Shown in pieces: positions 18,583-22,368 of a stretch of 64,000 nucleotides of DNA. The DNA lies in the NCBI GenBank assembly GCA_016195985.1, contig JACPYP010000012.1, forward strand, positions 1 through 64,000, written 5' to 3'. How positions within the stretch are numbered: the stretch's first letter is position 1; the number at the start of each line of letters is the position of its first letter. The notes beneath the pieces were generated by a model. It was not told where the DNA came from, did no database searches, and saw only the letters and a list, made by a program, of their open reading frames with translations. The translations under genes and the position numbers were made by a program. Origin of the DNA: Acidobacteriota bacterium. GTDB lineage: Bacteria > Acidobacteriota > Holophagae > Holophagales > Holophagaceae.

Positions 18583-18658
18583 TGGAGCCGCTAGTCGGAA
18601 TTGAACCAACGACCATCCGCTTACAAGGCGGGCGCTCTACCAACTGAGCTATAGCGGC
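18583..18658 (-). tRNA. tRNA-Thr (anticodon TGT), copy 1, CCA encoded
   Basis: On the minus strand the 76-nt sequence folds as a full cloverleaf. Acceptor GCCGCTA pairs with TAGCGGC, the D stem GCTC pairs with GAGC, the anticodon loop CTTGTAA gives TGT, and the T stem GTTGG pairs with CCGAC around TTCAATT. CCA is encoded at the 3' end. An identical tRNA body occurs at 22293-22365; the two are the outer repeats of the 3.7-kb island. Confidence 0.95.
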
Positions 18659-18661
18659 ACT
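18585..18661. repeat. 77-bp direct repeat, left (att-like)
   Basis: These 77 bases are identical to 22292-22368. They cover the entire tRNA-Thr body plus one to three bases on each side. The distance between copies is 3707 bp. Such repeats are expected at the two junctions of an element integrated into a tRNA gene by a tyrosine recombinase. Confidence 0.93.
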
Positions 18662-18688
18662 GCGGTTTGCAGAGCCTCCAGCGTATCA

Positions 18689-18707
18689 GTTGTGCCCATG
18701 TTGTGCC
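18689..18707. repeat. 19-bp subterminal direct repeat, left copy
   Basis: GTTGTGCCCATGTTGTGCC matches 22155-22173 with one mismatch. Each copy contains two TTGTG half-sites. It lies 28 bp inside the left 77-bp repeat. Position and symmetry suggest an arm-type binding site for an integrase (inference). Confidence 0.65.
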
Positions 18708-18757
18708 TCCCCTCCAATCCCAATCCCTAGAGAACCCCCCTCATCCGGGGAGGTTCC

Positions 18758-19189
18758 ATGGCAACGCAACATCCGGGTCTCAAAAGGATCGGGGAATACT
18801 GGCACTTCTCGTTGAAGATCAACGGGCAAAGACTCCACGGGTCTACCAGGGCGAAGGATCTTGCCACGGCAAAGCGCGTCATGGAGGAACGCCGGAAAGA
18901 ACTCCTGCTGAACCAGTGTGGCGCTCCCAAGATCCCAACACTTGTCGCCTTGGTCGAACGGTGGCTCAACACCCACAAGGCGGTCCATATGGAACTTGCG
19001 AAGGTGGCACACAGCCCGCGCAAGACCCGCGACCTCCTCATTAGGATGCACCAGAGGCGAGAACGGATGTGCGAGGCGCGGGTCATGGCTATCGTCAGAG
19101 AGCGCAGTCTGATTGACACCTCAGACCTTCAGAACGCTGAAGCGGACTTCCACAACGCCGTCATTGACCTGAGGGCTCTGAAGCTCTGA
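18758..19189 (+). CDS. Truncated tyrosine-recombinase (phage integrase) N-terminal fragment
   Basis: 143 residues. The first ~50 (LKRIGEYWHFSLKINGQRLH, then a KDLATAKRVMEERRKEL helix) look like the arm-type DNA-binding domain of phage integrases. A short core-binding-like helix follows (LVALVERWLNTHKAVHMELA). The catalytic domain with the R..HxxR..Y residues is absent, and the last ~45 residues do not resemble integrases. Full-length members have roughly 350-400 residues. ATG 18758 is preceded by GGGGAGG. It is either a decayed integrase or a stand-alone DNA-binding protein of the island. Confidence 0.6.
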   Translation: MATQHPGLKRIGEYWHFSLKINGQRLHGSTRAKDLATAKRVMEERRKELLLNQCGAPKIPTLVALVERWLNTHKAVHMELAKVAHSPRKTRDLLIRMHQRRERMCEARVMAIVRERSLIDTSDLQNAEADFHNAVIDLRALKL

Positions 19190-19309
19190 TCGGTATCGAT
19201 CCACCAGGAAACACCACTGCGGGTCCCTTTCTGGACTTCCCAGCCCACAGAATGCTCGGGCTAATGCTTATTTGCCTGTGCGTTTGGTGGCGACTGCTTC
19301 AATTCTCAT

Positions 19310-19612
19310 TCAACAGATCTCTGACACCTGAACATCAGGGTTATTGAGGTGTTCAAGGCACTCTGAGAGAAGCCCGCGATATTCCAGAAGGTCCTTCACA
19401 GAGCTAGCGTGGTTACGGAAGTAGCGTGAGAGCAGGCTGAATTCGGTATTGGGTTGTGCGGTCAACCAGTCGATGTCCTCCTGAAGCCGGTGGTAGGTCT
19501 CCCAGAAGATGACCGCGTATGGGTCTTCCGGCTCCGAGGTGCGGCGGTGGTGGTCAGCACTGTCATCCAGAATGGCGTTTGAGGTGGTGGGGTTGAAATT
19601 CATGAGGGTCAT
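19310..19612 (-). CDS. Hypothetical small protein of the island
   Basis: 100 residues, acidic and helical (AVIFWETYHRLQEDIDWL, HASSVKDLLEYRGLLSECLE). I do not recognise the family. Support for a real gene: TAGGAG sits 5 bp before ATG 19612, the frame is uninterrupted, and its composition is less GC-rich than the flanking chromosome. No signal peptide, membrane segment or DNA-binding motif is evident. It lies between the integrase fragment and the ApeA-like gene and is transcribed in the opposite direction to both. Confidence 0.55.
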   Translation of the reverse strand: MTLMNFNPTTSNAILDDSADHHRRTSEPEDPYAVIFWETYHRLQEDIDWLTAQPNTEFSLLSRYFRNHASSVKDLLEYRGLLSECLEHLNNPDVQVSEIC

Positions 19613-20263
19613 TGGTACTCCTAGGTGGGAATTGAGGTCTATGAAGGCAAGCCTTCGGCGGCGATCTGCAGATGCAGTCGCGGGGTGAGGGGTGAACTTG
19701 CTACCGGTGGCTACCCTCTTCGACCACTGGTTTGAGGCGGTGCCCTATAGCTAATGGGCTTGGCGTCCGGGACACGGAGGCTAGCACTCCGGGTTCGGGC
19801 GTCAGTTTCGAATACCACCAAGGTTCGTCAGCCACGCCGAACACGATCCTCGCCGAATCTGGAGCCAATTTTGATAAGGCTGGCTGATGGGTTGATTTGG
19901 TCAAGGACATTCATGGAGCTGATAGCCCCCAGCCATCTATCTATTGGTGATTGAATCACAAATAAAGACGTAACTACGTCACAATAACAACAAATCCCTC
20001 CAAGGACGGGACCCCCATATGTCGAGCTAGAGCTAGCGTAATATTGATATGGATTCTTAATTGCAATTTAATTGATAATCTATAAAACCCTAATAATCAA
20101 TAATTTGTATATGGTCAAGATGCCCTTGGAACTGAATATCTTGGGTCTGAATAAACTCGAAAATCGGTTGCCCAATTAGTGTTAGCACTATCGTAAGATT
20201 AGGCGCTGCGTAGTAATGACGAACCCGTTGCTGGATAAAATTAATACTTAGAGGGAGGTCAAA
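19613..20263. other. Gene-free island segment upstream of the ApeA-like gene
   Basis: 650 bp without a credible gene. Composition changes sharply near 19950 from mixed to very AT-rich. It includes a perfect GACGTA-AC-TACGTC palindrome at about 19967-19980 and several TA-rich stretches from 20041 that could hold promoters. A minus-strand frame at 19701-19910 has no visible ribosome-binding site or family, and I do not call it. Confidence 0.6.
20252..20258 (+). promoter_or_regulatory. Strong ribosome-binding site of the ApeA-like gene
   Basis: GAGGGAGG lies directly upstream of ATG 20264 at a suitable distance. It fixes this start over later in-frame ATGs, and it also puts the conserved YWWLP phrase at the very N-terminus. 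Confidence 0.75.
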
Positions 20264-21619
20264 ATGAAGGAGACCAATAAAGGCTATTGGTGGCTTCCTG
20301 GAGATGAAGATAGTAAGTGCAATGGAGAATTGGACACCTCGTCGAGATACCCCGTGCTTAGCTTGAATGGGGTAGGTAGTGACAATATTGCTCGGCGTGT
20401 CCCTCCATTCGTAATGCATGGCTTATTGCTGAATGGCTTGAAAGTAACGATGCTTGAATGTCATACGAATGGTGGATCTCAGTTTTTGCATACAGGCATG
20501 GGGGAATTAAATATTGAATCAAGCTGTGTAATAGTAGGAGATAGTCATTATGATGGAGGAGAAAATGTATATAGTGGTGTCAAACTGTCGTTATCTCTTC
20601 TCAGTGAATGGACGCATCTTACGGCTATTAAAATAGATCATCAAGAAGGCAAACAGATCATTCATCTTGAACCAATCGAAGCGATTAAGTTCAATTTAAG
20701 CAATGGAATTAAGGGCGAATTAGGTTTCACAATTGATGAAAAATTTGGAACCTATGGAAAGGAGAGTTTTAGCGTATCAGAGGATACTTATCTTGAATTT
20801 TCTTTTGAATCTAAAAAAAATATTACTGAATTAGAAGAATTTGGTCGTAAAATTCAAACATTTTTAATGTTTTGCACCAGAAAGCCGATAAAAATCGAAA
20901 AAATGACACCAATTATTGAATACAAGAAAAGGAAAATTGGGAATTCAGAACGCTTGGTGCCAATAGCGGATACAGTGTATGCATATTTTATAGAAAATGA
21001 CGAAAAGAAAATCGAATACAGAAACCAGCTAATATGGTTTGAAGATATTAAAGATAAATTCGGTGAATCATTAGAACGGTGGCTTGATTTAAACGAATCG
21101 ATTAGACCAGCTCTTGATTTGCTGTTCTCTGTAAAAAGAGCAACACATATGTATCTTGAAAATGAATTTTTAGTTCTATGTCAAGCTTTGGAGTCGTTAC
21201 ATAGGCGTACAATGGGACGGAAAGCATTTGATGAGGCAAAATTTGATACAATGTTAGTAGATATGATTGCTACTGTCCCTGATGAACACAAAGAATGGTG
21301 GAACGGAAAATTAAAGAATCTAAATTCACCAACATTACGAGACAGGTTACAGGAAATGGTCGGTTCTTTTCAGGAAGTATGGGCAGGTTATAAGGGTGTC
21401 GATGTATTTGCGCAAAGAATTAGTGCTACTAGAAATTATTATACGCATTTCGGTGATAAAACCAAACATGTCTATTCTTTGGAAGAAATGATGCTGGTTG
21501 TAGGGAAATTAGAAGCACTAATTGAGATGCATGTATTAAAAGAACTTGGATTTTCTACTAAAGATATTGTAGATATATGTAATAAAAATTTTATGTGGAA
21601 AGAGGTCATTGAGCGGTAA
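20264..21619 (+). CDS. apeA: ApeA-like HEPN anti-phage defence protein
   Basis: 451 residues. The N-terminal region starts GYWWLPGDEDSKCNGEL, followed by a beta-rich stretch to about residue 180, the pattern of the ApeA N-terminal domain. The C-terminal half is helical and carries a HEPN motif, RNYYTH (Arg390, His395, R-x4-H), inside SATRNYYTHFGDKT, as in Apea-like HEPN RNases. ApeA is a single-gene system reported to protect bacteria from phages, probably by RNA cleavage and abortive infection. Base composition is far more AT-rich than any neighbour, so the gene is recently acquired. No toxin-antitoxin partner is adjacent. Family assignment is by eye. Confidence 0.82.
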   Translation: MKETNKGYWWLPGDEDSKCNGELDTSSRYPVLSLNGVGSDNIARRVPPFVMHGLLLNGLKVTMLECHTNGGSQFLHTGMGELNIESSCVIVGDSHYDGGENVYSGVKLSLSLLSEWTHLTAIKIDHQEGKQIIHLEPIEAIKFNLSNGIKGELGFTIDEKFGTYGKESFSVSEDTYLEFSFESKKNITELEEFGRKIQTFLMFCTRKPIKIEKMTPIIEYKKRKIGNSERLVPIADTVYAYFIENDEKKIEYRNQLIWFEDIKDKFGESLERWLDLNESIRPALDLLFSVKRATHMYLENEFLVLCQALESLHRRTMGRKAFDEAKFDTMLVDMIATVPDEHKEWWNGKLKNLNSPTLRDRLQEMVGSFQEVWAGYKGVDVFAQRISATRNYYTHFGDKTKHVYSLEEMMLVVGKLEALIEMHVLKELGFSTKDIVDICNKNFMWKEVIER

Positions 21620-22292
21620 CGCTTTTTTAAAAATTCTGTCATCCAAGATTAGCAACTAAATGCTCTTACTTTACAACTTGGGGAGATTGTCGCTGGAGGA
21701 AGAATCGCGCCGCGAGTGCCCATGGATGGGTAGACAAGGACCGCTCGGGATTGGTCAGTTACTGCGACGTGTCCAATTCAGGGTTCCATCACCTTCCTGG
21801 TTCGTCGTGGCAGGAACCACTCCATTCGGCGGATTGGGAATGAAGCAGAGTTAGAGCCTGACCATGTCGTCATCGGTTGCCTAGGGCTGGCTGCGTATGT
21901 CGAATGGGTGCGTTGACCACTGACGGTGAAGTGCGGTCCATTTACCTCTGATACCCCTGATTGGTCCCGGGCTGGTTCCAGTTCATAGGTTGGGCACCCG
22001 CGGGCTTTTCGCCGAATCAGACCGAGTGTAGGAAAACCCCACCCCTACCCTAGACAAGGGAAGGGCACGGGGCTGGATTGACGGAAACGCAGTATTAGAG
22101 GGGCTCTAGACAGAGCCCTGGGTAGTCCTTCGGTGGCTGGATAGGACATGGGGAGTTGTGTCCATGTTGTGCCCTGGCACCCTAAAGATCCCTAAAATAG
22201 GGGCACACTCGCGGGTGTTCTCTCGGTCATTGGAATTGGATACAACGAGCTAAGAGCCCCGTCAGTATTGAGCTTCAGGGGCTTCAAGGCAG
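21620..22292. other. Gene-free right end of the island
   Basis: About 670 bp between the ApeA-like gene and tRNA-Thr copy 2. I see no convincing gene; a 64-codon frame at 21660-21854 lacks a ribosome-binding site and family. It contains a 7-bp hairpin GGGCTCT-AGAC-AGAGCCC at 22101-22118 without a T-run, and the 19-bp subterminal repeat. Composition is closer to the chromosome than to the ApeA-like gene. Confidence 0.6.
22155..22173. repeat. 19-bp subterminal direct repeat, right copy
   Basis: GTTGTGTCCATGTTGTGCC has one mismatch to 18689-18707 and the same orientation. It lies about 120 bp inside the right 77-bp repeat. A short ATCCCTA motif follows both copies. Probably a recombination-protein site. 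Confidence 0.65.
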
Positions 22293-22368
22293 AGCCGCTA
22301 GTCGGAATTGAACCAACGACCATCCGCTTACAAGGCGGGCGCTCTACCAACTGAGCTATAGCGGCACT
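22292..22368. repeat. 77-bp direct repeat, right (att-like)
   Basis: Identical to 18585-18661. It forms the junction between the island and the accC side of the chromosome. Confidence 0.93.
22293..22365 (-). tRNA. tRNA-Thr (anticodon TGT), copy 2, no encoded CCA
   Basis: Same 73-nt cloverleaf and TGT anticodon as copy 1. After the discriminator base the DNA reads CTG rather than CCA, so the end would need enzymatic addition. The 5' flank of this copy is native chromosome (accC side), so it probably keeps the original tRNA promoter. The 3' flank belongs to the island. Confidence 0.93.

Follow-up and report, generated by a model that had tools for sequence, protein, structure and literature searches.

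CIMEs have been described as decayed ICEs or IMEs in which the integrase is inactivated by deletion and both attachment ends and the cargo are retained (PMC5704250). A second kind of element with similar parts is the I55 type, integrase-plus-defence islands at tmRNA that are moved by jumbo phages; they measure between less than 20 kb and more than 70 kb, carry an intact tyrosine integrase, AlpA-type genes and defence cargo, lack transfer genes and have direct repeats at an RNA gene (PMC12595487). In mycobacteriophages, pairs of short repeats flank the core as arm-type sites of the integrase; their sequence changes with the integrase N-domain, and related integrases differ in specificity (PMC3203893). 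With respect to cargo, ApeA is a HEPN abortive-infection-type defence gene (domain in PMC3710099; listed as a system in PMC10952713), a single gene with the ApeA N-terminal domain 1 and an Apea-like HEPN domain with an R-x4-H motif.

Here we analysed a small island in a window of 64,000 nucleotides, which is the whole stretch of DNA under analysis. In form it matches the CIME concept, and we consider it likely to be a decayed, internally deleted integrative island, a stranded leftover with its ends and one defence-type gene.

The tRNA-Thr Repeats and the Insertion Site

The segment is bracketed by two copies of tRNA-Thr(TGT) on the minus strand, one on the murJ side, at the integrase end (18585..18661), and the other on the accC side (22292..22368). 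They are direct repeats, identical in 77 out of 77 positions, whose starts are 3707 bp apart and which enclose 3.6 kb. Both were scored as intact genes by ARAGORN and Rfam, and they were the only elements of the island to pass the Rfam threshold. Considering that the accC-side copy keeps chromosomal upstream DNA, the original gene has the island at its 3′ end, and the displaced copy, an att site, is that on the murJ side.

The closest relative, judged by the flanking genes (murJ 93% and accC 98% in amino acids), was G020, where the site is empty: a single tRNA-Thr copy lies between murJ and accC, at 42 and 28 bp from these genes. The left flank of the window (..GAGATTG followed by GAGCC) and its right flank (..CAGTCTATCGG) both continue in this empty site. 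Taking as empty a site with a single tRNA-Thr copy that is at most 92 bp from murJ and 300 bp from accC, it was present in 10 members of the genus, G020 included. That the tRNA had been duplicated by chance or by the assembly was ruled out, since the flanks of the two copies differ and each is explained by the G020 site. In four other genomes (loci L061, L226, L229, and L230 of G004, G019, G028, and G012) it is noted that approximately 1.2–7 kb separate a single tRNA-Thr from murJ, with no recognisable integrase; these stretches may be old islands.

The preliminary description had proposed a tRNA-Thr-bounded island with perfect 77-bp copies at its ends, and had suggested that related genomes be searched for the empty site; the intact repeats and the empty sites of the relatives support it. 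The locus has, as tRNA-targeting islands do, direct repeats with tRNA sequence at both ends and an empty site in relatives; of a functional site-specific recombinase, it holds only residues 1–77 of an integrase.

The Integrase Stump

An open reading frame of 143 aa next to the murJ-side repeat (18758..19189, plus strand) is formed by the N-terminal part of a tyrosine integrase (residues 1–77) and an orphan in-frame tail (residues 78–143), without a catalytic domain. Residues 1–77 are 79% identical to a 368-aa integrase of G016, which matches PF00589 (3.6e-28) and central-domain models, and approximately 43–58% identical to the other close integrases of the genus. This homology stops abruptly at codon 77 (18988), where the 66-aa tail begins. 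An alignment in which 118 residues were 62% identical to those of the G016 integrase was discarded as over-extended, given that tblastn stops at residue 77. The reading frame gave no noteworthy match in Pfam, PADLOC, PHROG or NCBIfam, and no relatives of the tail were found in the genus, plasmids or phages. The base composition of the tail is of the coding type (GC2 0.38, GC3 0.76), and the 143-aa chimera, with its tail in frame and coding-like, may have a function instead of being debris.

A model made from the single sequence showed three strands and a helix in residues 8–53, with pLDDT mostly 83–90, and a helical tail of low confidence. The search of PDB folds with this model gave no significant match, so the reading of the stump as an arm-binding domain is based on its homology to full integrases. 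The genome itself has six Phage_integrase-type matches, none of them of this integrase group.

Putative Arm-Type Pairs at the Island Ends

At each end of the island there are two 8-bp direct repeats whose starts are 11 bp apart. The putative arm-type pair of the integrase end is GTTGTGCC-CAT-GTTGTGCC (18689..18707, plus strand, starts at 18689 and 18700), and that of the far end is GTTGTGTC-CAT-GTTGTGCC (22155..22173, plus strand, starts at 22155 and 22166), followed by the shared CACTCGCGGGTG signature. The 19-bp pattern GTTGTGYCYATGTTGTGYC (GTTGTGYC-YAT-GTTGTGYC) occurs 14 times in 47 genomes of the genus, and the reversed control 0 times. Five of the 14 copies are directly upstream of integrase starts (the window, G004, G006, G014, and G016); seven are followed closely by the far-end signature CACTYGCGGGTG or a near variant of it (the window, G003, G004, G006, G009, G016, and G064), and two are solo copies, near tRNA-Arg (G060) and near tRNA-Leu (G066). 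The paired motif is nearly confined to island ends across the 47 genomes.

We infer that the GTTGTGYC pairs would be integrase arm-type sites. The repeats of the window differ from the mycobacteriophage sites in being 8 bp long, with an 11-bp start spacing and all in direct orientation. Other integrase groups of the genus have different pairs with the same spacing, TTGCACCT in G007 and G032 and TGATAACC in G069. No integrase of the genus was seen to combine the tRNA-Thr site with GTTGTGYC arms; G007 has the same tRNA and different arms.

Taking into account that these pairs stand at both ends, the stump and its in-frame tail could be a domesticated DNA-binding protein which occupies them and stabilizes the island. 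The N-domain is intact and constrained with respect to G016 (first 77 codons, dN 0.15 and dS near saturation), and the coding-like tail would agree with this. However, the constraint may be older than the truncation, nothing related to the tail was found and the binding is a prediction; this possibility seems to us improbable.

Base Composition and the ApeA-Type Cargo

The gene at 20264..21619 (plus strand) is intact and codes for an ApeA-type HEPN protein of 451 aa. It matches PF18862 with 120 bits (E 1.7e-34) and PF18739 with 104 bits (E 1.2e-29), far above the cut-offs of 25.5 and 24.4, respectively, and PADLOC places it in the candidate family PDC-S58. In its RNYYTH motif, R390-x4-H395 is invariant in 45 aligned sequences. 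The ApeA N-terminal domain, the Apea-like HEPN domain and the catalytic R-x4-H motif make it a member of ApeA by sequence, and the HEPN protein with an ApeA-like N-terminus that had been recognised from the letters was confirmed. Compared with the known ApeA it is a distant member, approximately 27% identical to the best relatives found, and its defence activity is predicted.

Apea-type HEPN genes were found in 4 of the 47 genomes. The relatives in species genomes are distant (best segments mostly 21–28%, up to 36% over partial matches), as are those in viral contigs, and the direct pattern search gave no close relatives in species genomes or phage records. In plasmids there were 24 records with relatives, those listed having approximately 20–27% identity. 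A tyrosine recombinase was detectable near only 13 of 104 ApeA loci, and the idea of ApeA as a habitual passenger of integrase islands was discarded as a general rule.

The search of solved structures by sequence gave nothing meaningful; the AlphaFold model was good (pLDDT 85) and its PDB matches were weak. For residues 6–93, the structures that matched best were those of phage tail-tube and Hcp proteins (VIA Z up to 7.2; 82 residues aligned at an rmsd of 2.5 Å), and PilZ-type barrels followed closely. The match to tail-tube and Hcp proteins is below the level for claiming a shared fold, and a sensing role of this region, for ApeA in general, would be an idea suggested by the model.

The HEPN gene has 36% GC and a GC3 of 0.30, and it is the sole strongly AT-rich gene of the island. 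Outside it the island has mostly 53–58% GC, with a 413-bp stretch of 40% directly upstream of the gene. The GC3 is approximately 0.70–0.76 in the other open reading frames and 0.91 in the flanking host genes. The backbone is much nearer to the host in composition than the HEPN gene, which looks like a recent foreign arrival. The earlier qualification of the whole segment as foreign-looking holds strongly for the HEPN gene only; the rest has mostly 53–58% GC, and for much of it there are relatives within the genus. The HEPN gene is the only intact recognisable cargo, but it is not the only recognisable content: the integrase stump, a truncated backbone open reading frame and conserved ends are also present.

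Backbone and Related Islands of the Genus

The regions 19310–19850 and 21977–22094 match the islands of G002 and G032. The first contains a 100-aa open reading frame (19310..19612, minus strand), a shortened relative of the backbone frame of these islands (206 aa and 49% in G002), and a conserved DNA segment 81% identical to the G002 island (19642..19850); the second, near the far end (21977..22094), is a conserved segment 76% identical to both. The gap between the conserved segments has approximately 400 bp in G002, and in the window it is occupied by the HEPN gene. The island itself is present in 1 of the 47 genomes.

tRNA gene duplicates can form without mobile elements, and the repeats could be an ordinary duplication of tRNA-Thr with unrelated DNA between the copies and no integrative element. 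The integrase stump, the paired arm motif at both ends and the backbone segments common to tRNA islands of the genus speak against it; this explanation is hardly credible and is already contradicted by the shared island ends.

At the same tRNA-Thr, G007 (locus L056) has an island of 5.8 kb with the same layout as that of the window, an integrase adjoining the murJ-side copy and one large gene. It differs in that its integrase is full length (346 aa), in the TTGCACCT pairs and in the cargo, a single protein of 1273 aa. This lone cargo of a complete integrase island (L056:3381-7202) has no Pfam or PADLOC match and is a candidate defence gene.

At tRNA-Met, G006 has the same motif as the window at both ends, 7.6 kb apart, with a 355-aa integrase and a PD-Lambda-2_C-like gene. 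Besides an integrase, the island of G032 at tRNA-Asn (9.65 kb) has a type I-like methylase fusion of 1026 aa and a gene of 483 aa, and that of G069 at tRNA-Pro (8.06 kb) has an integrase and a 479-aa gene which resembles PrimPol by eye; a PrimPol fragment was scored in a G002 island (PF09250, 8.1e-7). These two complete islands of 8–10 kb (L080 in G032 and L232 in G069), with full integrase and a PrimPol-like gene of approximately 480 aa, are apparently the autonomous form of this island family. Smaller forms were also observed at tRNA-Arg. In G002 (L087:8248-11227) there is a 2.9-kb island with 88-bp tRNA repeats, a broken integrase, a UDG-superfamily protein and a small adjacent open reading frame; in G031 (L085:5633-7873) there is a 1.95-kb relic with partial tRNA repeats, a 152-aa integrase stump and one further open reading frame.

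Recurrent Truncation of the Integrase

Leaving out two homologues that end at contig edges, 12 close integrase homologues of the genus could be scored. Seven are full length (G016, G007, G004, G019, G006, G069, and G032) and five are broken: that of the window, two of G002, with 289- and 288-aa frames, the second with homology only to approximately residue 200, that of G031 (152 aa) and that of G009, a C-terminal remnant only. The breakpoints differ, which fits independent decay, as expected. A different view would be that the 143-aa stump and tail pins the defence gene in the chromosome and that repeated truncation is a selected route from mobile defence islands to permanent immune genes; we give this little credence.

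Proposed History of the Island

According to the decayed-island reading, an island of a tRNA-targeting integrative family common in the genus would have entered the chromosome between accC and murJ, at the 3′ end of tRNA-Thr(TGT), probably by its own tyrosine integrase, which would bind the GTTGTGYC pairs at both ends and recombine within the tRNA sequence. The integrase would then have lost its catalytic domain, and the island most of its backbone, through an internal deletion that joined the first 77 codons, in frame, with a piece of another reading frame. The remnant would consist of both ends and a single AT-rich gene that is still intact, the ApeA-type HEPN gene. This gene has presumably been kept because it gives phage defence on its own, as a HEPN ribonuclease that infection would activate. 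Self-excision would be lost, and any movement would depend on the supply of an integrase whose arm and core specificity fit those of the island; homologous recombination between the 77-bp repeats could also delete it. If the truncation came before the insertion, the island would have inserted in trans.

As in a CIME, integration and transfer genes are lost and both attachment sites are kept: the integrase is truncated, the tRNA repeats and arm pairs are in place, and there are no transfer genes among the island open reading frames. An ICE or IME ancestor, as CIMEs have, would be hypothetical here: the larger relatives have integrase and PrimPol-type genes, and no conjugation gene was noticed in those read.

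The preliminary description had pointed to a satellite-type carrier lacking helper genes, that is, a non-autonomous element regularly excised, carried and re-inserted by integrases of other elements or by phages. It is consistent with ends that both keep their arm pair and a full tRNA repeat, with the lack of visible decay in the first 77 codons and with the movement of similar integrase-plus-defence islands by jumbo phages in Pseudomonas (PMC12595487). Nevertheless, the island is in a single genome of the 47, no helper integrase of this group was found in its own genome, and the different breakpoints of the other broken integrases are those predicted by decay. Nor were satellite hallmark genes found: no packaging, capsid-redirecting or AlpA-type gene (PICI or P4 type) was matched by Pfam, PHROG or NCBIfam in the island open reading frames tested. 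The island carries a remnant of its own type of tyrosine integrase, and its backbone pieces recur in larger islands of the genus with full integrases, so that deletion accounts for the missing genes better than a satellite life-style, which we consider unlikely. With both end sites surviving, the island may still be mobilised in trans, but no matching integrase was found in the genome.

The intact relatives in the genus resemble the integrase-plus-defence islands moved by jumbo phages (PMC12595487); the window island, of 3.7 kb and with no catalytic integrase, differs from these. It offers a concrete case of a single-gene defence system left behind by a mobile island after integrase loss. The end signature found across the genus, 8-bp pairs with 11-bp spacing and a sequence for each integrase group, is a handle for finding islands, those with broken integrases included, and the proportion of broken close integrases (5 of 12) makes plain decay versus selected immobilisation a testable question.
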